Position numbers and translations under genes: made by a program. From an uncultured Sulfurovum sp. (GTDB taxonomy: Bacteria; Campylobacterota; Campylobacteria; Campylobacterales; Sulfurovaceae), in NCBI GenBank assembly GCA_902727855.1, contig CACVAS010000066.1:1-64000 (forward strand): a stretch of 64,000 bases of DNA, in the 5' to 3' direction. Under the pieces are notes generated by a model. It searched no databases. It was not told where the DNA came from and worked only from the letters and a program-made list of their open reading frames with translations. Shown here piece by piece: positions 1 through 12,743 of this stretch (position 1 is its first letter; the number at the start of each line of letters is the position of its first letter).

Positions 1-3000
1 AATGAGACAATGACATGTATCCTCACAGGTACGGTTGTGGCAGGACCATATGCAAATACCGCTACGGTAACAGCAGAGGGGAATGTTTCAGGAGAGTCCG
101 TACGTGATGAAGATCCATCACACTACACCACACCAGTCGTAAGCATTGGTTCGATTGTATGGCATGATGTGAACAATAATGGACAGCAAGATGGCGGTGA
201 AGTTGGGATTGATGGAGCAGTGGTACAACTACTCCATGGAGATAATAGTGTCGTTGATGGTATATCGATACAAACCACAGATGCAGATGGTCTGTACTAC
301 TTTGGTAACCTTCCAGAAGGTGACTATAAAGTACAAGTAACGATACCAGATAGATATATTCCAAGTACGACACAAACGGCAGCAAATAATGATGATTCTC
401 AAAATGATTCAAATATTGCAGAGAGTTTAGGCAATGTACATACTTCAGGACTCTTTACCCTAAGTGATAATGGTGAGCCTGATGATGTGAATTCAAATAT
501 TGCGAACTCAGATGAAGCGGATGATGCAGATGACGACAATGGAAACATGACGGTTGACTTCGGATTCTTTGCACCAAGAGTGAGTATTGGTTCGCTTATA
601 TGGAATGATGTGAATGATAATGGACAACAAGAAGGTGGTGAAGTGGGAATTGCTGGTGTGGTAGTACAATTATTACACAGTGATAATACACCAGTAAACG
701 GTGTAGCCACACAAACTACAGGAGCAGATGGTCTTTATTACTTTGATGATCTTTTCGAGGGTGATTATAAAGTACAAGTGACTATGCCAGCAGGATATAA
801 ACCAAGTACACTTCAAACAGTGATTGATAATGATGATTCAGTGAATGATTCAAACATCGCAGAGAGTTTAGGAAATGTACATATATCAGGAACGTTTACC
901 CTTAGTGATAATGGTGAACCTGATGATGTAAACTCAAATATAGCAAATTCTGATGTTGCAGATAATGAAGATGATAACAATGGAAATATGACCGTTGACT
1001 TTGGATTTTTCTCTCCAAAGGTTAGTATTGGTTCAATTGTATGGCATGATGTGAATAATAATGGACAACAAGAAGGTGGAGAAGTTGGAATTCCTGGTGC
1101 AGTGGTACAACTATTACATGGTGATAATACCGTTGTAAATGGGGTAGCAACACAAACCACAGATGAAGATGGACTGTATTATTTTGATAACCTTGAAGAA
1201 GGTGACTATAAAGTACAAGTAACAATGCCAGCAGGATATACACCAAGTACAGCACAAACTATAGCTGATAATGATGATTCTCAAAATGATTCAAATATTG
1301 CAGAGAGCATTGGTGATGTGCATACTTCAGGTCTGTTTACGTTAACTGCAAATGGTGAACCAGATGCAAGTAATTCAAATATAGCAAACTCTGATATTGC
1401 AGATAATGCAGATGATAACAATGGAAATATGACCGTTGACTTCGGATTCTTTGCACCAAGAGTGAGTATCGGTTCGATGATATGGAATGATGAGAATGAT
1501 AATGGAGAACAAGATGGATCAGAAGTGGGAATTGCTGGAGCGGTAGTACAACTGTTACATGGTGATAATACCGTTGTAGATGGTGTAGCGACACAAACCA
1601 CAGATGCGGATGGACTCTATTACTTTGGAGATTTGGTAGAAGGTGACTATAAAGTACAAGTGACAATGCCAGCAGTATATACACCAAGTACCATACAAAC
1701 CACAGCAGATAATGATGATTCTGAAAATGATTCAAATATTGCAGAGGTTTTAGGAAATGTGTATACCTCAGGATTGTTTACCCTTACTGACAATGGCGAG
1801 CCAGATGATGTAAACTCTAGAATTGCTGATTCAGATGAAGCGGATGATGCAGATGACAATAATGGAAATATGACAGTAGACTTTGGTTTCTTTGCACCAG
1901 TCCCAGTGATTGATGTTGAGAAGACTACAAATGGAATAGATGCAGATGTAACAGGTGCCCTAGATGTGCCAGTATTACATATTGGTGATGTTGTAAGATG
2001 GGAATACAATGTGAGTAATCAATCTAATGATGTACTTATTAATATTGAGTTAGATGATAATAAAGAAGGAAACATCCAATGTCCTCAAGATACATTAGCG
2101 ATAGGTGAATCTATGGTGTGTGTACTAGAAGGTATTGTTGAGGAAGGGCCATATACGAACATGGCAAGAGTCAGTGCAGATGGAAATATTTCAGGAGATA
2201 GAACAGTAGACGAAGATCCATCAAACTATACTACCCCAGTTGTAAGTATTGGGTCTATTGTATGGAATGATGAGAATGACAATGGATTACAAGATGGTGG
2301 AGAAGTAGGTATTGAAGGTGCCGTAGTACAACTATTAGATGGAAATGCTGTACCTATTATTGGGGTGGCAAGACAGACAACTGGTGCAGATGGACTTTAC
2401 TACTTTGATAATTTACTTGAGGGTGACTATAGAGTTAAGGTAACGCCACCAGCAGGGTATTCACCAAGTACGACACAAACGACAATGGACAACAATGACA
2501 GTGAACATGACTCTAATATTATTGCCTCTACTATTTTGAATGAACACTATTCTGCACTCTTTACACTCACACACAATGGTGAGCCAGATGGTGTCTTCTC
2601 AAATATTGCAGGAAGTGATCGTGCAGATGATGCAGATGATGATAATGGAAATATGACCGTAGACTTCGGGTTCTTTATTCCTACACCAATCATCGATATA
2701 GAAAAATCAACCAATGGGGTAGATGCTGATACCTTTGCAGATGCACCATATTTACGAGCGGGAGATGTGGTAACATGGGAATATAATGTTACAAACATTG
2801 GTACGGAAAACCTTGTACATGTTTCCTTATATGATGATAAAGAAGGGATGATTACATGTCCTAAGATAACCCTTGAAATTGGAGAATCTATGGTATGTAT
2901 TCTCAAAGGTGTTGCACAAGCTGGAGAATATGAAAATAATGCAACAGTGATAGGATATGGCCGTGTAAGTGGAGAACTTACTTATAGTTATGATCCATCA

Positions 3001-6000
3001 CACTATGTAGTACCAGTTGTCTCTATAGGTTCAATCGTATGGGATGATGTGAATGATAATGGTATACAGGAAGCAGGAGAGAGTGGTATAGACGGTGCAG
3101 TCGTGCAGTTGTTAGATGCGAATAATACACCAATAGATGGTGTGGCAATACAAACAACAGATGAAGATGGTCTGTACTACTTTGATGGTCTTCCAGAGGG
3201 AGACTATAAAGTACAAGTGACAATACCACAAGGGTATACACCAAGTACTATGCAAACGACAACAGACAATGACGATAATGTAAATGATTCGAATATTGCA
3301 GAGAGTATAGAAAATGTACATACCTCAGGCGTGTTTAGCTTAAGCCATAATGGTGAGCCAAATGCAACAGATTCAGATATTGTAGACAGTGATGCAGCAG
3401 ATAATGCAGATGATGATAATGGAAACATGACCGTAGACTTCGGATTCTATGTACCAGTGCCATCAATCGATGTAGAAAAGTCAACCAATGGGGTAGATGC
3501 AGATACCTTTGCAGACGCACCAACATTACATGTAGGAGATATGGTTACTTGGGATTATAATGTTACAAATACAGGAAATGAGGTTCTTACCTACATAGTT
3601 GTAGGCGATGATATAGAAGGTACAGTTGCTTGTCCAAAAACAACACTAGATATCAATGAGTCTATGATGTGTCAATTGACAGGTATTGTAGAGTTTAAAG
3701 ATTATAAAAACATAGTCTATGTACAAGCAGAAGGTAACATTACAGGTGTGCCAGTGATTGATGAAGATCCATCACACTATACGGTGCCAAGGGTAAGCCT
3801 AGGTTCAATCGTATGGGATGATGTGAATGATAATGGTATACAGGAAGCAGGAGAGAGTGGTATAGACGGTGCAGTCGTGCAGTTGTTAGATGCGAATAAT
3901 ACACCAATAGATGGTGTGGCAATACAAACAACAGATGAAGATGGTCTGTACTACTTTGATGGTCTTCCAGAGGGAGACTATAAAGTACAAGTGACAATAC
4001 CACAAGGGTATACACCAAGTACTATGCAAACGACAACAGACAATGACGATAATGTAAATGATTCGAATATTGCAGAGAGTATAGAAAATGTACATACCTC
4101 AGGCGTGTTTAGCTTAAGCCATAATGGTGAGCCAAATGCAACAGATTCAGATATTGTAGACAGTGATGCAGCAGATAATGCAGATGATGATAATGGAAAC
4201 ATGACCGTAGACTTCGGATTCTATGTACCAGTGCCATCAATCGATGTAGAAAAGTCAACCAATGGGGTAGATGCAGATACCTTTGCAGACGCACCAACAT
4301 TACATGTAGGAGATATGGTTACTTGGGATTATAATGTTACAAATACAGGAAATGAGGTTCTTACCTACATAGTTGTAGGCGATGATATAGAAGGTACAGT
4401 TGCTTGTCCAAAAACAACACTAGATATCAATGAGTCTATGATGTGTCAATTGACAGGTATTGTAGAGTTTAAAGATTATAAAAACATAGTCTATGTACAA
4501 GCAGAAGGTAACATTACAGGTGTGCCAGTGATTGATGAAGATCCATCACACTACACGGTACCAAGGGTAAGCCTAGGTTCAATCGTATGGAATGATGTAA
4601 ATGATAATGGTATACAAGAAAGTACAGAGCAAGGTGTTCCAGGAGCGATTGTTCAACTGCTTGATGGTAATAACACACCAGTGATAGGTGTACCAATACA
4701 AGTAACAGATGAAGATGGTCTGTACTACTTTGATGGTCTTCAAGAAGGAGACTATAAAGTACAAGTGATTGCACCAGATACATATTTTGCAGGAACTACA
4801 CAAACGACAGCAGATAATGATGACAGTGAAAATGATTCAAATATTGCAGAAACAATTGAACGTGTACATACCTCAGGACTCTTTACCCTCAGTGGTGATG
4901 GAGAACCAAATGGCATAGACTCTCCTATCGCTAATTCTGATGATGCAGATGATGGTGATGATAACAATGGAAATATGACTGTTGACTTTGGACTTTTTGT
5001 ACCAGTACCAGTCATAGAGGTAGAGAAAACAACCAATGGTGTAGATGCAGATGACGCAGTAGACGCAGTAGTACTAGAGATAAATGACACCGTCACTTGG
5101 GAGTACACTATTACCAATAATGGTAATGAAGTACTTGTGAATATAGCGCTTGATGATGACAAAGAAGGCAATGTGAATTGTCCTAAAGAGTCACTTCAGG
5201 TTGCGGAAAGTATGGTATGTTCTTTAACGGGTATTGCCAGCAAAGGGCTCTATGAAAATACTGCAACAGTGGTGGCAGATGGAAATATATCAGGCGAACC
5301 AATCAGTGATGAAGATATGTCACACTACAGGGTACCAGTAGTATCACTTGGTTCAATTGTATGGCATGATGAAAATCATAATGGTATTCAAGATATCAAT
5401 GAGAGTGGTATCATTCATGCAGTGGTAACACTTTTAGATGGCACGGGCGAACCTGTAAGCGGTGTATTGCCACAGACAACTGATGCGAATGGGATCTATC
5501 TATTTGACAATCTTTTAGAAGGTGAATATAAAGTACAAGTAAGTATGGAGTATGCGGAACAAGGATTTATTCCTACTACGCGTCAAACACCTGATGCTAA
5601 TACAGATATTGATGGTGATTCAAATATTGCTGAAAGATTTGTGGAAGAGGGTATATATATTTCTGGAGTGATTAAACTTGAAGAGAATCAAGAACCAGAA
5701 AATGAAACATCACAGATGGTTGAAAATGGAAATAATGCTGATGATGCAGATGATAACAATGGGAACATGACAGTAGACTTTGGTTTCCATAAGGTATTTG
5801 ACCTTGCTGTGATTCATACGATTAATCAAACAGCAACACCTGGTCCATACAACCCAGGAGATGATATCAGGTTCTTGATAGCTGTCACGAATCAAGGTAG
5901 TGTTGATGCAAGTCAAGTGGCATTGGAGAACTTTATTCCAGAGGGTCTTATATTAAACGATCCAGATTGGAGACTTGAAAGTGCTAATACGGCTGTCTTG

Positions 6001-6621
6001 AGAGATCCAATAGCATTTATTGGTGCTGGAGAGACTCAATTGGTAGACATTGACTTTATCATTGATCCGAACTATGATGGTTCAGTGATTATAAACAATA
6101 TAGAGATTAATTCAGCAAGAGGTGGTGAAGATATAGATTCTATACCTGGAAGTGAAACAATCAATTCACCACATGATGAAGAGGACAATGATGTTAGTAA
6201 CAAAGAAGGATGGGATGATTATGATCCAGTTGTGATAGTACTTGGAACGCCTACACCAACACCGACGGCAACAAATACACCAACGCCAACAGCAACACCA
6301 CCAAGTACAACACCGACTATTGAAGCAGAAAATATGGAGCTTACTGCTGTAAGTAGTCATGGCTTTACATTCTCTTGGGACAACCCTTTTACAAATGATA
6401 TAGAAGGGTTTGCGATCTATCAAGATGGTGTACGTATTGCCATAGTAGGACCAAATACAAGAGAATATACGGTTTCAAACCTAGAAGAAAATACAGTCTA
6501 CCAATATAGAGTAGATGCCTATAGTAAATATGATATTTATGAACTAGGAAATATTACGATAAGAACAGAGGAGAAAAACTTTGGTTGGTTACCTGCGGTG
6601 TATCATATGCTATTTAATTAA
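1..6621 (+). CDS. Giant SdrD-B/DUF11 repeat surface protein, 5' end outside window
   Basis: The frame is open from base 1 (N-E-T before the first ATG at 10) and matches an internal repeat motif (xESMVCxLxG), so the true start lies upstream. At least 2,203 residues are visible. Nine SdrD-B-like units begin with V-S-I/L-G-S-I-V-W-x-D-x-N-x-N-G; the last ones alternate with DUF11-like units beginning I-D-V-E-K-S/T-T-N-G. Each unit ends in an Asp/Asn-rich stretch followed by GNMTVDFGF. Near the C-terminus come a DUF11-like domain, a Thr-Pro linker and a fibronectin III-like domain. No LPXTG or obvious anchor is visible. It is probably a secreted or cell-surface adhesin or matrix stalk, with Ca-binding likely from the Asp-rich loops. 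The function is inferred from repeat type only. Confidence 0.85.
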   Translation, partial: NETMTCILTGTVVAGPYANTATVTAEGNVSGESVRDEDPSHYTTPVVSIGSIVWHDVNNNGQQDGGEVGIDGAVVQLLHGDNSVVDGISIQTTDADGLYYFGNLPEGDYKVQVTIPDRYIPSTTQTAANNDDSQNDSNIAESLGNVHTSGLFTLSDNGEPDDVNSNIANSDEADDADDDNGNMTVDFGFFAPRVSIGSLIWNDVNDNGQQEGGEVGIAGVVVQLLHSDNTPVNGVATQTTGADGLYYFDDLFEGDYKVQVTMPAGYKPSTLQTVIDNDDSVNDSNIAESLGNVHISGTFTLSDNGEPDDVNSNIANSDVADNEDDNNGNMTVDFGFFSPKVSIGSIVWHDVNNNGQQEGGEVGIPGAVVQLLHGDNTVVNGVATQTTDEDGLYYFDNLEEGDYKVQVTMPAGYTPSTAQTIADNDDSQNDSNIAESIGDVHTSGLFTLTANGEPDASNSNIANSDIADNADDNNGNMTVDFGFFAPRVSIGSMIWNDENDNGEQDGSEVGIAGAVVQLLHGDNTVVDGVATQTTDADGLYYFGDLVEGDYKVQVTMPAVYTPSTIQTTADNDDSENDSNIAEVLGNVYTSGLFTLTDNGEPDDVNSRIADSDEADDADDNNGNMTVDFGFFAPVPVIDVEKTTNGIDADVTGALDVPVLHIGDVVRWEYNVSNQSNDVLINIELDDNKEGNIQCPQDTLAIGESMVCVLEGIVEEGPYTNMARVSADGNISGDRTVDEDPSNYTTPVVSIGSIVWNDENDNGLQDGGEVGIEGAVVQLLDGNAVPIIGVARQTTGADGLYYFDNLLEGDYRVKVTPPAGYSPSTTQTTMDNNDSEHDSNIIASTILNEHYSALFTLTHNGEPDGVFSNIAGSDRADDADDDNGNMTVDFGFFIPTPIIDIEKSTNGVDADTFADAPYLRAGDVVTWEYNVTNIGTENLVHVSLYDDKEGMITCPKITLEIGESMVCILKGVAQAGEYENNATVIGYGRVSGELTYSYDPSHYVVPVVSIGSIVWDDVNDNGIQEAGESGIDGAVVQLLDANNTPIDGVAIQTTDEDGLYYFDGLPEGDYKVQVTIPQGYTPSTMQTTTDNDDNVNDSNIAESIENVHTSGVFSLSHNGEPNATDSDIVDSDAADNADDDNGNMTVDFGFYVPVPSIDVEKSTNGVDADTFADAPTLHVGDMVTWDYNVTNTGNEVLTYIVVGDDIEGTVACPKTTLDINESMMCQLTGIVEFKDYKNIVYVQAEGNITGVPVIDEDPSHYTVPRVSLGSIVWDDVNDNGIQEAGESGIDGAVVQLLDANNTPIDGVAIQTTDEDGLYYFDGLPEGDYKVQVTIPQGYTPSTMQTTTDNDDNVNDSNIAESIENVHTSGVFSLSHNGEPNATDSDIVDSDAADNADDDNGNMTVDFGFYVPVPSIDVEKSTNGVDADTFADAPTLHVGDMVTWDYNVTNTGNEVLTYIVVGDDIEGTVACPKTTLDINESMMCQLTGIVEFKDYKNIVYVQAEGNITGVPVIDEDPSHYTVPRVSLGSIVWNDVNDNGIQESTEQGVPGAIVQLLDGNNTPVIGVPIQVTDEDGLYYFDGLQEGDYKVQVIAPDTYFAGTTQTTADNDDSENDSNIAETIERVHTSGLFTLSGDGEPNGIDSPIANSDDADDGDDNNGNMTVDFGLFVPVPVIEVEKTTNGVDADDAVDAVVLEINDTVTWEYTITNNGNEVLVNIALDDDKEGNVNCPKESLQVAESMVCSLTGIASKGLYENTATVVADGNISGEPISDEDMSHYRVPVVSLGSIVWHDENHNGIQDINESGIIHAVVTLLDGTGEPVSGVLPQTTDANGIYLFDNLLEGEYKVQVSMEYAEQGFIPTTRQTPDANTDIDGDSNIAERFVEEGIYISGVIKLEENQEPENETSQMVENGNNADDADDNNGNMTVDFGFHKVFDLAVIHTINQTATPGPYNPGDDIRFLIAVTNQGSVDASQVALENFIPEGLILNDPDWRLESANTAVLRDPIAFIGAGETQLVDIDFIIDPNYDGSVIINNIEINSARGGEDIDSIPGSETINSPHDEEDNDVSNKEGWDDYDPVVIVLGTPTPTPTATNTPTPTATPPSTTPTIEAENMELTAVSSHGFTFSWDNPFTNDIEGFAIYQDGVRIAIVGPNTREYTVSNLEENTVYQYRVDAYSKYDIYELGNITIRTEEKNFGWLPAVYHMLFN
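3028..4577 (+). repeat. Near-identical 774-bp tandem duplication
   Basis: Two adjacent copies with a period of 774 bp (258 codons) encode one SdrD-B unit plus one DUF11-like unit. They run from about 3028 and about 3802. I see no base difference over roughly the first 750 bp. The first differences appear near 3778/4552 (tat versus tac) and 3787/4561 (gtg versus gta). The other repeat units of this gene are clearly diverged, so this duplication is recent or homogenised. Confidence 0.9.
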
Positions 6622-7788: not shown

Positions 7789-8526
7789 CTACCCTCTTTG
7801 AGTCTCACCCGAAAAACCAATGATCCCTGGTCTTAAATTACAAACATGTTCATACCCCATACCTTTCATAGCATGCTGTACTTGAAAACTTCTACTTCCA
7901 GAGTGGCAATAGAGTATAATTGGCTCAGATTTTTTACCTGAGAGTTCTTCTACTTTAGCGTAAAATTGTGAGGTGGGTATCAGCGTGTCAGTACCTACAA
8001 TGTGGCCCATTTGGAATTCCATGTGTTCTCTCGTATCGACAAGTGTAAAGTCTATCATACCTAGGTTTTTTGCTTCTATAAGTGCTTCAAGCTCATCACC
8101 ATCTAATTGTTCTACTTTGAGTAGGGCTTCTGCTTCTTCTGTGGTAAGTCCACGTGAATGCTGGTGTACAACTTCTTCTATAGTGTCATGTTGTGCCTGT
8201 TCTTTGGCATATTCCGGTGTACAGAAGATACCACAATGACAAAGTCCATCTTCTGGTATCTCTTTCTCTATGGCAGGCTTACAAGGGCAAATACGGTTGT
8301 CTGCAGCTTTTTGCTCCTCTTTCGTCTCTCCGATGACCATAAAACAAGGACAAAACTGTTTACCGTAGATAAGCTTATTTCTAGCAAGCCCCATGGCTAC
8401 ACCTTCATTGACCTCTTCATTAGGGTTTTGCACCCATCCAAATTGTTTGTTTACTTTGTCTACAAATGACCATGTCTTTTCTAGTTGTGCTTGAAATTCA
8501 TCTGAATTCATATCTATTTGTTGCAT
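7789..8526 (-). CDS. Ferredoxin-thioredoxin reductase catalytic domain fused to rhodanese
   Basis: 245 residues. The N-terminal part has the FTR catalytic-subunit cysteine pattern: C59-P-C61, C80-P-C82 and C96-H-C98, with C102 nearby, expected to hold a 4Fe-4S cluster next to a redox disulfide. The C-terminal part (about 155-245) is a rhodanese domain with VDTRE at 163-167 and the active loop C207-HSGSRS. FTR normally reduces thioredoxin with electrons from ferredoxin; rhodanese moves sulfane sulfur. The fusion suggests ferredoxin-linked reduction of a persulfide or thioredoxin-like partner, which is an inference. It is the last gene of a minus-strand set with a lipoprotein gene 12 bp upstream. 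No signal peptide, so cytoplasmic. Confidence 0.85.
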   Translation of the reverse strand: MQQIDMNSDEFQAQLEKTWSFVDKVNKQFGWVQNPNEEVNEGVAMGLARNKLIYGKQFCPCFMVIGETKEEQKAADNRICPCKPAIEKEIPEDGLCHCGIFCTPEYAKEQAQHDTIEEVVHQHSRGLTTEEAEALLKVEQLDGDELEALIEAKNLGMIDFTLVDTREHMEFQMGHIVGTDTLIPTSQFYAKVEELSGKKSEPIILYCHSGSRSFQVQHAMKGMGYEHVCNLRPGIIGFSGETQRG

Positions 8527-8538
8527 CTATATCCTTTA

Positions 8539-9114
8539 TTATTTAGTTTGATCTTCAAATCGTTTAGCGATATCATCAATATCATTGACAAATATTTGCA
8601 TAGACTTTCCCCATGTTTCTAAAAAGTTTTTTGTTTTATTGAGGTCAATATTAATATTATCTTTATCAATTTTAATACCTGGACCTTTTTCATCAACCAG
8701 ACCTCTTTGAACGTCACGTGTTAATTTTTGAAGTTTGTTTTCAATATTTTTTCCAAGATTTTTAAAAAAGTCTTTTGTTTTGTTGGTATCTATAGTAATT
8801 CTATTTTCATCTACAGCAATACCTACTTTTGAAAGTTTTTCATTTTGTTTGATGGTGTGTGAAATTTTTTCTTGGCGAGATCTTTGTTGTTCAAGGGCTT
8901 TTTGATACTCTTTTTGTTGCAATTGAAGGGCAACTTTAGCTTTTTTAGCCTCTTCTATTGCCTTTTGAAGTTGAGTTTCTTTTAAATCTAGTTCTTGTTG
9001 GAGTTTTGCCTGTTCGACTTTTGCAACTTTAGCTTCTTGTAAAGCTTTTTCTTCATTATCGTTACAAGCGGAAAGAGAAAATAATAAAATAAATGATAGA
9101 AGCGTATATCGCAT
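8539..9114 (-). CDS. Coiled-coil lipoprotein of unknown function
   Basis: 191 residues. The N-terminus MRYTLLSFILLFSLSAC is a lipoprotein signal with lipobox LSAC, so the mature protein should begin at Cys17. Residues about 20-95 are Glu/Lys/Gln/Ala-rich with long heptad-like stretches, predicting a coiled coil. The C-terminal half holds two similar segments (V/I-x-x-D-x-x-x-I-x-I-D-x-N-K-T-K-x-F), an internal duplication. It is not recognised as a named family. It lies between the Cys-rich peptide gene and the FTR-rhodanese gene on the same strand. Confidence 0.65.
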   Translation of the reverse strand: MRYTLLSFILLFSLSACNDNEEKALQEAKVAKVEQAKLQQELDLKETQLQKAIEEAKKAKVALQLQQKEYQKALEQQRSRQEKISHTIKQNEKLSKVGIAVDENRITIDTNKTKDFFKNLGKNIENKLQKLTRDVQRGLVDEKGPGIKIDKDNINIDLNKTKNFLETWGKSMQIFVNDIDDIAKRFEDQTK

Positions 9115-9222: not shown

Positions 9223-9474
9223 TTACCCACATTTTCCTTGACCACATTTCCCCTTTTCAGGTACTTTTTTAGTATCTTTTTGTTCACCACCACATTTTCC
9301 AGCAGCACATTTCATCTCTTTTGTGGCATTTGAACATTTCCCACTTGGAGATTTCATCTCTTTTTTATCTGTACCGCATTTGCCTTCACCACATTTTCCC
9401 TCTGCTGTTGCTAAGGTAACCGATAATGCCAATGCACCAAAAAGAAGTGCAGTAAGTTGAAGCGTTTTTTTCAT
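9223..9474 (-). CDS. Cys-rich EGKCG-repeat periplasmic peptide (bufferin/HvfA-like)
   Basis: 83 residues. A Sec signal peptide (about 1-24, ending ATA) is followed immediately by EGKCGEGKCG (25-34). The rest has SGKC, MKC and AGKCG, and it ends KGKCGQGKCG, giving seven Cys, all in K-C contexts. EGKCG motifs after a signal peptide are the hallmark of HvfA/bufferin precursors, whose Cys are modified by MNIO (DUF692) enzymes and which bind copper. A DoxX gene lies 14 bp upstream in the same direction, as in those loci. No MNIO or BufC/HvfC-like gene is visible in this window, so modification here is uncertain. Confidence 0.75.
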   Translation of the reverse strand: MKKTLQLTALLFGALALSVTLATAEGKCGEGKCGTDKKEMKSPSGKCSNATKEMKCAAGKCGGEQKDTKKVPEKGKCGQGKCG

Positions 9475-9488
9475 TGTATATCCTTTAT

Positions 9489-9926
9489 TTATTCTTGACC
9501 AAAGAGTAGGTGGTCAAAACTTAATTTTCCAGCTCCAAACGAAGCAAATAGTCCTAAAAACAACATATAGTAAAGAGGTATCTCAAATCCATTGTCCCCT
9601 GCAGAAAAACCATGTGTAAGGTGTACTGTAGTAATAGCTACAATCATCACAATCATGAGTGGAAGTGAGATAAGTCTTGTAAAGAGTCCAAGTGTTAAAA
9701 GTACAACCCCAAGTAACTCAGTACTTGCAGCAAGATAGGCATTGACAGTGGGGAAAGGGATACCTATAGATCCAAACCATTGTGAAACTGAATCAATATC
9801 TGACCATTTTTGCATAGCAGGCTCATAAAATCCATAGGCAACTGCAAGCCTAGCAAGTAAGAGAGAGAGGCTTTGCCCATGACTTAAGATATTTCTTGTG
9901 ATAGGATAAATACTTTTTAACATCAT
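9489..9926 (-). CDS. DoxX family membrane protein
   Basis: 145 residues with about four hydrophobic segments and the DoxX pattern LLLARLAVAYGFYEPAMQKW near the N-terminus. DoxX proteins are small inner-membrane proteins tied to thiosulfate:quinone oxidoreductase (DoxD/A), sulfur stress, or, as BufD/HvfD, to Cys-rich copper peptides. The directly following EGKCG peptide gene (14 bp apart, same strand) favours the last role. GGAG precedes the ATG pair (ATGATG); the exact start is one of these two. Confidence 0.8.
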   Translation of the reverse strand: MMLKSIYPITRNILSHGQSLSLLLARLAVAYGFYEPAMQKWSDIDSVSQWFGSIGIPFPTVNAYLAASTELLGVVLLTLGLFTRLISLPLMIVMIVAITTVHLTHGFSAGDNGFEIPLYYMLFLGLFASFGAGKLSFDHLLFGQE

Positions 9927-10136
9927 AAACTCCTTTCATGCGTTTTAATGTTCGTACGAGGTAAGTATAATCTATGTATTGTGTAATGTGTGTGCAACTT
10001 TTAATGCAAAAGACATATTTATAGTCTAGGCAATACTGGTCTACTTTTTGAGATCAATATACTTATACAGTAATGAGTAGAAGAGTAGATGAATGATAAA
10101 GTAAGAAAATGTAGTTTAAAAAAGTTGTGTAGGGTG
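9927..10136. other. Spacer upstream of doxX
   Basis: AT-rich DNA of about 210 bp that should hold the promoter of the minus-strand doxX operon. I see no clear operator, ORF or RNA gene. Confidence 0.4.
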
Positions 10137-10175: not shown

Positions 10176-10421
10176 TTATTTAGAAGTACCACATTTTCCA
10201 GCAGCACACTTACCACTTGCAGCACATTTTTTAGTAGCATCTTCAAGTTTTTTTGCAGCACATTTACTCGCAGCACATTTTTTAGTTGTAGCACATTTGC
10301 TTGCAGCACATTTTTTACTTGTGGAACATTTTGCACCAGCTTCTGCATCGTTACCTGTTGTACAGCCTGTGAAGGCAATCATTCCTAGACCTAGTAGCGC
10401 AGAAAAAATTAACTTTTTCAT
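10176..10421 (-). CDS. Cys/Lys/Ala-rich repeat lipoprotein
   Basis: 81 residues. The signal MKKLIFSALLGLGMIAFTGC has a lipobox ending at Cys20. The mature part is a low-complexity series of K-C-A-A-S-K-C and K-K-C units with eight more Cys, ending GKCAAGKCGTSK. The regular K-C spacing suggests a metal-binding (copper or similar) envelope lipoprotein. It resembles the EGKCG peptide at 9223 in Cys context but lacks the EGKCG core, so it may be a relative or an independent solution. GGAG lies upstream of the ATG. It is monocistronic with its own terminator. Confidence 0.7.
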   Translation of the reverse strand: MKKLIFSALLGLGMIAFTGCTTGNDAEAGAKCSTSKKCAASKCATTKKCAASKCAAKKLEDATKKCAASGKCAAGKCGTSK

Positions 10422-10570
10422 TTTTACTCTCCTGAAATTTATATTGGGAACCCAATTATAATAGAGGTAGTGTGTAAAGCATGTGTACTAAAAAGCATGA
10501 TTTGAGTACACTTAGAATACACATAAGTTGATTACGATGCGAATATATATTAAAAAATGAAAGTTATATC

Positions 10571-11077
10571 ATGTTAACAAGAAGAAAAATATTAGTATTT
10601 GGTTCCCTTATGGGATTGTCTTCTTGGCTTCAGGCAAAGTCAAGGGCATCTATAGATAGAAAAGTAAACACGAAGGTTAAAAGAACCATTGCTGCTGTGC
10701 AAGAGCATTTATTTCCATCTAACAGTAAGATTCCCTCTGCGAAGATGATGCATGCAAATACCTTTTTATTGGAAACCATTAGTCATAAGAGTTACGATAA
10801 AGACATACGTAGATTTGTGCTTGAAGGGGCAAAGGAATTAGAAGTTCGAGAAAAAGGTCTTTTTACAACATTATCAAAAGAAGATAAAGAGAGAGCATTA
10901 CGTGAATATGAAGAGACAAATTACGGAAGTTCATGGTTATCACGTATTATGACACTGACTATGGAAGGTATCTTTTCTGACCCTATTTATGGATCAAATA
11001 AGAATGAAAAAGGGTGGCAGGCTATTAAGAGCTTTGGAGGACAACCAAGACCAAATACGAGGTATTTAGATGTATGA
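10571..11077 (+). CDS. Tat-exported gluconate 2-dehydrogenase subunit 3-like protein
   Basis: 168 residues with the N-terminus MLTRRKILVFGSLMGLSSWLQA, a twin-arginine signal (RRKILVFG). The rest is helical and resembles the small (gamma) subunit of membrane GMC dehydrogenases such as gluconate 2-dehydrogenase subunit 3. This subunit carries the Tat signal and escorts the cofactor-loaded large subunit to the periplasm. It overlaps the GMC gene by 8 bp, supporting a complex. No cytochrome c subunit follows. The substrate is unknown. Confidence 0.75.
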   Translation: MLTRRKILVFGSLMGLSSWLQAKSRASIDRKVNTKVKRTIAAVQEHLFPSNSKIPSAKMMHANTFLLETISHKSYDKDIRRFVLEGAKELEVREKGLFTTLSKEDKERALREYEETNYGSSWLSRIMTLTMEGIFSDPIYGSNKNEKGWQAIKSFGGQPRPNTRYLDV

Positions 11078-12743
11078 TGTTGCAGTGATAGGCTCTGGTG
11101 CTAGTGGAGGTGCTGTAGCATATACTTTATGTAAGGCTGGATATAATGTTGTGATGTTTGAAAAAGGTAGGCTCATTGGACGTGACGAGTTTAGCAAAGA
11201 TGAATTGGCATACAGTAGACGCGATTTGATTACACCCAATTTGTTTGACGAGTATCATACTATCGAAGAGAAAATAGACGGCGAATGGAAAGCTACCCCT
11301 ACGTATGAATCTGGGTGGAGTTTTTGGAATGGTAGTATTGTTGGAGGATCATCTAACCTTATGTCAGGGATGGTACATCGTTTGCATCCAGATGACTTTA
11401 GACTTAAAAGTAAATATGGTGATATTGAAGGGTCAAATATCGTTGATTGGCCTATTGGCTATGAGGACTTAGAACCCTACTACGATAGAGTAGAAGAGCT
11501 TGTGGGTATATCTGGAGACCATAAAGACCATCCCTATGAACCTTGGAGAAGTAGAGTAAACTTTACACAACCTGCAACACAAGAGAATGCGGTTGTAAAG
11601 TTATTTGACAAAAGTTGCCATGCGCTTAATATTGTGCCTCTTGTCACACCAAGGGCAGTACTTTCTAAAGACAAAGAAGACAGAAAAGCTTGTTACTACT
11701 CAAACTTTTGTGGAAGTTATGGTTGTTCTTCTGGAGCGAAAGGTTCCTCCCGTGAAGCACTGATAAAGCCAGCATTGGCAACAGGTAAACTTAAACTCAT
11801 GACGAATACACACGTGAAGTCTCTAAAGAGTAATAAGGAAGGGAAAGTTACGTTTGCTAGAGTGGTAAATACAATTACGGGTAAAGAAAAAGAGATAAGC
11901 GCAACAATCTTTGTGGTGGCAGCACAAGCACATGAAAGTGCACGGTTACTGTTAAATTCTGCTAACAAGTATTATCCTAATGGTTTAGCAAATAGTTCAG
12001 GTGAACTAGGTAAAAACCTTCTTTTCTCAGGAGGAGGGTCTGGACAAGGAGAACTGCACAAGGATAGTCTCAAAGAAATAAAGTTTAATGAGTTGATGAC
12101 AACAGGACTGTTTGTTAACCGTTCCATACTGGATTGGTACTTTATTGATCATTGGTGGTATGGGAAGTTTAAAGGGGGCTCTGTTGAATTTATGTTTGAA
12201 CATCAAAACATTATTTCACGCGCACGTAAGAATGGTTATAGTGAGGGGAAACTTGTTTGGGGAGAAGCGTTAGGTGAGCGTATTGTGAAGCGTTTTACTG
12301 AACAAAAGAGTATACGCTTTGAAATTTTTAATGATTGGCTTCCCAATGATAATTGTTTTGTCGCATTAGATGAAACCCATAAAGATAAATATGGCATGCC
12401 TGTTGGAAAACTTCGTCTTGAAGGACACCCTCAAGATGTTAAGGTAGGAAAATATATTGCTAAAAAGTGTGAAAAACTTTTAGAAGAGATGGGTGCTAAA
12501 AATATATACTCTTCTATCTCTTCTTCGGCAGCACAAAATCTTGTTGCTGGTGGATGCCGTTTTGGAAATGACCCTAAAACATCTGTACTTAACAAGTATT
12601 GCCAGGCACATGATGTAGAAAACCTTTATGTCGCAGATGCTAGTTTTATGCCTACAGGAGGTTCTGTAGCCTATACATGGACCATATATGCCAATGCCTT
12701 TAGGGTAGCAGACCATATAGTGAAGGTGTTAGACAAGGGGTAA
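11070..12743 (+). CDS. GMC family FAD-dependent oxidoreductase
   Basis: 557 residues. The N-terminus MYDVAVIGSGASGGAVAYTL is a Rossmann FAD motif (GSGASGG). GGSSNLMSG near residue 95 fits the GMC signature, and the C-terminus has the FAD/active-site pattern around GGCRFGNDP and DASFMPTGGSVAYTWTIYANA. No signal peptide, so export with the Tat subunit encoded just upstream (8-bp overlap) is likely. It should oxidise an alcohol or sugar in the periplasm and pass electrons to the respiratory chain. The substrate cannot be told from sequence. Confidence 0.85.
   Translation: MYDVAVIGSGASGGAVAYTLCKAGYNVVMFEKGRLIGRDEFSKDELAYSRRDLITPNLFDEYHTIEEKIDGEWKATPTYESGWSFWNGSIVGGSSNLMSGMVHRLHPDDFRLKSKYGDIEGSNIVDWPIGYEDLEPYYDRVEELVGISGDHKDHPYEPWRSRVNFTQPATQENAVVKLFDKSCHALNIVPLVTPRAVLSKDKEDRKACYYSNFCGSYGCSSGAKGSSREALIKPALATGKLKLMTNTHVKSLKSNKEGKVTFARVVNTITGKEKEISATIFVVAAQAHESARLLLNSANKYYPNGLANSSGELGKNLLFSGGGSGQGELHKDSLKEIKFNELMTTGLFVNRSILDWYFIDHWWYGKFKGGSVEFMFEHQNIISRARKNGYSEGKLVWGEALGERIVKRFTEQKSIRFEIFNDWLPNDNCFVALDETHKDKYGMPVGKLRLEGHPQDVKVGKYIAKKCEKLLEEMGAKNIYSSISSSAAQNLVAGGCRFGNDPKTSVLNKYCQAHDVENLYVADASFMPTGGSVAYTWTIYANAFRVADHIVKVLDKG

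Follow-up and report, generated by a model that had tools for sequence, protein, structure and literature searches.

How does a cysteine-rich peptide of the HvfA/Buf_EGKCG kind function in a bacterium in which no modifying enzyme is encoded beside it? Database models label such peptides 'oxazolone/thioamide-modified RiPP metallophore' by their motif alone. A survey found 67 genomes without MNIO among 2583 Buf_EGKCG genomes, and left the meaning of this absence open (PMC12452194). The question is raised here by a locus of an uncultured Sulfurovum sp., located in a window of 64 kb, by which we mean the whole stretch of DNA that was analysed. A preliminary description of this DNA had noticed a Cys-rich peptide with a Sec signal directly before EGKCG repeats and a DoxX protein next to it, had likened the locus to those of HvfA and the bufferins, and had found no MNIO or BufC-like gene nearby. 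It left two alternatives, namely that the modifying enzyme is encoded elsewhere or that the peptide works unmodified, and proposed searching the genome for DUF692/MNIO genes. The features of the locus are given in Table 1.

Table 1. Genes and promoter repeats of the peptide-HvfX locus and its surroundings (positions in the window)
Feature	Position	Strand	Basis
KCG peptide, HvfA/Buf_EGKCG-like, 83 aa	9223..9474	-	Sec-like signal then EGKCG repeats, 7 Cys; NF050137
HvfX-family DoxX membrane protein	9489..9926	-	NF050144, PF07681
Cys-rich lipoprotein, KCAASKCA repeats, lipobox FTGC	10176..10421	-	Sequence; homologues adjoin HvfX in most Sulfurovum loci
Gluconate_2-dh3 (G2DH3) protein, twin-arginine start TRRKIL	10571..11077	+	PF13618, 42.8 bits; RR start in alignment of relatives
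GMC flavoprotein, FAD-glucose/fructose dehydrogenase fold	11070..12743	+	PF05199/PF00732; PDB 6a2u, 134 bits; fold Z 36
Direct repeat GTGTAAAGCATGTGTA in divergent promoter region	10472..10487	+	Repeat search
Direct repeat GTGTATTCTAAGTGTA, same divergent promoter region, opposite strand	10507..10522	-	Repeat search
Direct repeat GTGTAATGTGTGTGCA, 55 bp upstream of HvfX start	9981..9996	+	Repeat search
Coiled-coil lipoprotein; accessory, uncertain	8539..9114	-	Beside peptide in Sulfurovum only
Ferredoxin-thioredoxin reductase (FTR) beta/rhodanese fusion; accessory, uncertain	7789..8526	-	PF02943, 127.7 bits; PF00581, 51.5 bits; kept in Sulfurovum block only

The peptide and its gene neighbourhood

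The peptide (MKKTLQLTALLFGALALSVTLATAEGKCGEGKCGTDKKEMKSPSGKCSNATKEMKCAAGKCGGEQKDTKKVPEKGKCGQGKCG) begins with a Sec-like signal that, read by eye from the sequence, consists of a K-rich start, a hydrophobic stretch and ATA-E, and that directly abuts EGKCGEGKCG; its C-terminal end is KGKCGQGKCG, and lysine precedes all seven cysteines. The peptide scores 33.7 bits against model NF050137 (KCGExKCG_twice), above the cut-off of 19.5, and 29.9 bits against the HvfA equivalog NF050188, below the cut-off of 95. The likeness to HvfA/Buf_EGKCG that had been noticed is thus real. Because the equivalog score falls short and both MNIO and DUF2063 are missing (see below), we do not file the peptide as a member of HvfA/oxazolin; the likeness lies in the motif, the signal-like start and the HvfX neighbour. 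That neighbour, described earlier as a DoxX protein, proved to be a genuine member of the HvfX family (122 bits against NF050144, cut-off 80; 74 bits against PF07681, the DoxX model). It is separated from the peptide gene by 14 bp on the same strand, and its nearest HvfX relatives in the genome_contigs collection belong to Sulfurovum metagenome-assembled genomes.

The peptide is intact in 22 Sulfurovum loci, in which lysine stands before 157 of the 161 cysteines counted and KCGxGKC(G/S) forms the terminus of 19 of the 22 peptides. In close pairs dN/dS is about 0.06-0.19, and 54 of the 57 cysteine positions compared are kept. Judged by these alignments, the peptide is under purifying selection and is not decaying, since a decaying relic is unlikely to combine a low dN/dS with retained cysteines. 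Within the 64-kb window, a test for a Sec signal plus at least three KC motifs was passed only by the peptide ORF and the Cys-rich lipoprotein, and the DNA pattern for KCGxGKCG occurs at 112 sites in 64 genomes, versus about 4 for a reversed control pattern.

The usual block, found in most Sulfurovum loci, comprises the FTR-rhodanese gene, the coiled-coil lipoprotein, the KCG peptide, HvfX and one or two Cys-rich lipoproteins; the G2DH3 and GMC genes are divergent from the peptide, HvfX and lipoprotein genes, again in most loci of the genus. The peptide/DoxX part of the earlier reading of the locus stands, but that reading had missed the second Cys-rich product, the lipoprotein, and the divergent Tat/GMC flavoprotein pair. 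The FTR-rhodanese and coiled-coil genes were considered as core parts and rejected, as their conservation is limited to Sulfurovum.

Several further proteins carry related features. The window genome encodes a lipoprotein of 215 aa in which LEA-like amphipathic repeats come after KCGEGKCG (L098, contig C52, 6232-6879); in a congener, a small protein resembling cytochrome c (L358, 4573-4965) ends in a MKCGQGKCGSSM tail; and a member of the order without MNIO (G038) encodes a Sec peptide with 19 cysteines in tandem KKCDKSKKCDYK units (L094, 6457-6927). Across the genus and the order, a membrane-anchored protein resembling FMN glutamate synthase (PF01645) accompanies a second copy of HvfX (L055, 3293-5442; also L057, L062, L146 and L167), and no Cys-rich Sec peptide was seen beside this second copy in the listed loci of the genus. 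At the beginning of the window (10-6621, plus strand) lies an ORF of 2203 aa with repeated SdrD-like segments, including two long, near-identical tracts.

Absence of MNIO and DUF2063 from the genus

The genome from which the window derives comprises 3.1 Mb in 170 contigs, with a completeness of 100% and a contamination of 9%. Profile searches found MNIO (PF05114) neither in the window nor in the rest of this genome nor in any of the 36 congeners, some of which are single-contig, and HvfC/DUF2063 (PF09836) is likewise missing from this genome and from each of the 36 congeners. The same models do detect MNIO and DUF2063 in other families of Campylobacterales, where PF05114 matches MNIO at E below 1e-70. 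Because the genome and its 36 congeners are empty while the models work in other families, MNIO is not encoded elsewhere: the genus-wide search rules out a location outside the window or in an assembly gap, and the absence of MNIO is, on the evidence of these profiles, a feature of the genus insofar as it has been sampled. The lack of an MNIO or BufC-like gene near the peptide was thus confirmed, the proposed genome search returned no MNIO gene, and the alternative of a modifying enzyme encoded elsewhere is refuted. We favour the other alternative, in which the peptide would work unmodified, over a modification of the peptide by some enzyme other than MNIO, which is conceivable.

The locus can be compared with two kinds of MNIO-containing systems. 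It shares with the oxazolin system HvfABCX of Haemophilus influenzae (PMC13419390, PMC12452194) an EGKCG-repeat peptide with a Sec-like start and an HvfX-family DoxX protein in the operon, but it lacks HvfB (MNIO) and HvfC (DUF2063), and it adds the Cys-rich lipoprotein and the divergent G2DH3/GMC pair. Further marks of the oxazolin precursors are 5-thiooxazole cysteines and copper binding. The MNIO-type EGKCG loci of other Campylobacterales (L359-L365, L370 and L372) also contain a KCG peptide and HvfX, often followed by an OmpR-type response regulator-histidine kinase (RR-HK) pair; however, MNIO and DUF2063 lie between peptide and HvfX in these loci, whereas the Sulfurovum type has neither and possesses G2DH3/GMC instead. 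In a separate case, an Arcobacter-like genome (L192 and L293), the MNIO match is confined to positions 109-216 of the model and GMC is broken into two ORFs; both genes may be decaying.

The GMC/G2DH3 pair and its distribution in Campylobacterales

By sequence and fold, the GMC protein groups with FAD-glucose and fructose dehydrogenases, namely with their alpha subunits. Its AlphaFold model, based on 34 sequences (pLDDT 79; an earlier model from 8 sequences, with pLDDT 57, was discarded), has a Z of about 36 to 6a2u/7w2j. The direct-electron-transfer FAD glucose dehydrogenase of Burkholderia cepacia (gamma-alpha; 6a2u, PMC6719666) and fructose dehydrogenase (7w2j) have in common with the present pair the GMC fold, a 3Fe-4S cysteine motif and a small partner of the Tat hitchhiker type. 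The equivalent cysteines of the window GMC (C208, C214 and C219) are invariant in 147 of 147 sequences. Unlike those enzymes, the GMC proteins lack the catalytic pair His476/Asn519 (numbering from PMC6719666) in all 147 sequences, with Leu at His476 and mostly Pro or Ala at Asn519 (L491 and A534 in the window), and in the window no gene for cytochrome c, such as a multiheme subunit, adjoins the G2DH3/GMC pair. The loss is equally complete in peptide-linked and unlinked GMC. As the catalytic pair is missing, the GMC protein is, as far as its sequence tells, unlikely to be an ordinary sugar dehydrogenase, and we do not file it as one; G2DH3 is likely its Tat 'hitchhiker' subunit.

In an order-wide sample of 399 Campylobacterales genomes, GMC is present in 104, MNIO in 38 and HvfX in 86. 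Of 91 GMC loci, 47 have a Sec/KC peptide no more than 4 kb away, and these peptide-linked loci, which show several gene orders, are distributed over nine family groups (eight family codes, the family of the window genome being counted as two groups, its own genus and the other genera); the linkage label changes at least nine times on well-supported branches of the GMC tree. KCGxGKCG sites fall within 7 kb of GMC in 44 of 112 cases, versus 0.7 expected over whole genomes with kinship ignored; several sites share one peptide, and by genome the count is 23 of 39. Also with kinship ignored, MNIO is found in none of the 47 peptide-linked GMC genomes versus 6 of the 44 unlinked ones, and the 86 HvfX genomes divide into 55 with GMC only, 18 with MNIO only, 6 with both and 7 with neither. 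A global mutual exclusion of MNIO and GMC was rejected, because they occur together in 7 of the 399 genomes with 9.9 expected over the order; the anticorrelation exists only among HvfX genomes. Similarly, the idea that GMC is dedicated to KCG peptides as a general rule was rejected, as Arcobacter-like genomes (family f8) contain GMC and no such peptides nearby, from which it follows that the function of GMC is not tied to the peptide.

The arrangements vary. In Sulfurimonas-like genomes, G2DH3-GMC comes after peptide and HvfX, all on one strand (L148, L156, L172, L177 and L183), or after the peptide alone (L267, L323-L325 and L095). Within a single genus (g20), one locus has the order peptide-MNIO-DUF2063-HvfX with an HK downstream (L370), and in others GMC-G2DH3 is transcribed divergently from peptide-HvfX-RR-HK or peptide-HvfX-HK (L287, L288 and L294). 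MNIO-type loci elsewhere in the order often precede the same kind of RR-HK pair (L361-L364).

Copper context and competing explanations

The divergent promoter region contains a conserved repeat, GTGTA-N6-GTGTA, with a period of 11 bp, of the kind that OmpR-type regulators use. The 64-kb window has three such repeats, all at the locus, versus 0.2 expected in shuffles. Among Sulfurovum loci, 48 of 50 matches stand no more than 200 bp upstream of a module gene, with 2.8 expected, a count that is partly circular as the motif was derived there; in other families 18 of 31 matches do so (1.1 expected), and in peptide-free f8 loci 0 of 1. One congener (G019) has the repeat in front of three further units as well: a CusC-like gene, an RR-HK pair, and an HvfX with a glutamate-synthase-like gene. 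Since the two promoters have common repeats, we infer that the peptide and GMC operons would be under one regulator.

A contig of the window genome (C72; L356, 2331-8102) encodes an RR-HK pair, CusC, CusB, CusA and a KCG lipoprotein with the motifs MKCGPGKCG and MKCAPGKCG. The transmembrane motif of CusA is one that we take to resemble the Cu/Ag type. CusB has AMKCEAGKCG right after its hydrophobic start, and an MKCEAGKCG-like start is also present in a second Sulfurovum CusB and absent from six CusB of other loci. In Escherichia coli, the disordered N-terminus of CusB binds Cu(I) via Met (PMC6235853), and it is at this site that Sulfurovum has its version of the motif, KCEAGKC. The presence of a KCG motif on CusB in a genome free of MNIO supports, by analogy, the use of unmodified cysteines. 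In other genomes, GMC loci adjoin CusCBA, CrdA-like (YtkA) or RR-HK genes, and in Helicobacter CrdRS controls CrdAB/CzcAB copper resistance (PMC4557348). The likeness to CusCBA and to CrdRS/CrdAB-CzcAB of Helicobacter pylori (PMC4557348, PMC6235853) thus consists of an RR-HK pair and a copper-type RND pump linked to the module, to which the peptide, HvfX and GMC/G2DH3 are additional in Sulfurovum. We infer the link to copper from genome context, and other soft metals would fit too.

The explanation that we consider probable, if only by a little, is that the locus belongs to an MNIO-independent branch of HvfA/Buf_EGKCG peptide-HvfX systems that buffers periplasmic Cu(I) by means of thiols and has a flavoprotein as partner. 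An OmpR-type regulator would read the GTGTA-N6-GTGTA repeats and co-regulate the two operons; the exported peptides would bind excess Cu(I) in the periplasm or envelope through the thiolates of their free cysteines, and the bound Cu(I) would be held for, or handed to, CusCBA efflux. HvfX would be the membrane partner of the peptides, and GMC/G2DH3, with its catalytic base lost and its FAD fold and 3Fe-4S ligands kept, would be a redox partner of the copper/thiol pool and not a sugar dehydrogenase. Against this explanation count the Arcobacter-like (f8) genomes with GMC and no KCG peptide, the lack of a nearby peptide at about half of the GMC loci, and the wide separation of peptide-HvfX from GMC in some genomes (G260, G336, G358 and G442).

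Alternatively, GMC/G2DH3 could be an ordinary periplasmic dehydrogenase and a chance neighbour, the functional unit being peptide-HvfX alone. The GMC family is common in the order without peptides, and the possibly related Cj0414/Cj0415 of Campylobacter jejuni have reportedly been discussed as a gluconate dehydrogenase. We consider this reading unlikely, as chance would have to account for adjacency in nine family groups and several arrangements, with at least nine changes forced on the tree, for the conserved divergent promoter region common to both operons in Sulfurovum, and for the missing catalytic pair. It is quite unlikely, too, that the pair is a maturase that oxidises KCG cysteines in the periplasm after Sec export, replacing HvfB/HvfC by a flavin route that may have no need for O2. 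Such an enzyme would fit the recurrent adjacency in several gene orders, the occupation by the GMC pair of loci that otherwise resemble MNIO loci, and the loss of the ordinary catalytic His/Asn with the FAD fold and Fe-S ligands kept; the reading is weakened by GMC in genomes without a detectable KCG peptide, by its occurrence together with MNIO in some genomes of the order, and by a His/Asn loss that is as complete in unlinked as in linked GMC. We also know of no flavin enzyme of the GMC fold that modifies peptide cysteines, which counts against a maturase.

Very improbable is the view that an MNIO overlooked through an assembly gap or strong divergence modifies the peptide, which would then be an ordinary RiPP like the bufferins. 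The window genome is a 170-contig assembly and the absence of MNIO is unusual among the Buf_EGKCG genomes surveyed by Antoine et al. (PMC12452194), but the gene is also missing from 36 congeners, some of them assembled as a single contig, while its profile gives very low E values elsewhere, and DUF2063, its partner, is missing too. For precursors that lack MNIO, the same authors named a loss of expression or of function as a possibility (PMC12452194). A peptide left behind without function when a bufferin cluster was lost is nevertheless hardly credible in view of the dN/dS values, the conserved cysteines, the 22 intact loci and the conserved promoter repeats.

In summary, a whole genus keeps a selected peptide, and most members keep HvfX, without an MNIO to modify the peptide. 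We found no literature report of a cysteine-rich periplasmic copper protein of Sulfurovum, and the main text of the survey by Antoine et al. does not name GMC among the associated genes (PMC12452194). The question posed by Antoine et al. in 2025, whether MNIO-less EGKCG peptides work unmodified or are dead, becomes directly testable, and a specific candidate partner enzyme and a link to copper efflux are now named. As a tentative and rather doubtful suggestion, the Tat-exported GMC/G2DH3 without catalytic His might be a new type of partner or maturase for EGKCG peptides that takes over the function of MNIO and DUF2063 in Campylobacterota; its periplasmic targets would be the thiols of the peptide or the copper bound to it, and O2 might not be needed. 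If the flavoprotein does act on the peptide, cysteine peptides that bind metals would be reached by a second enzymatic route.
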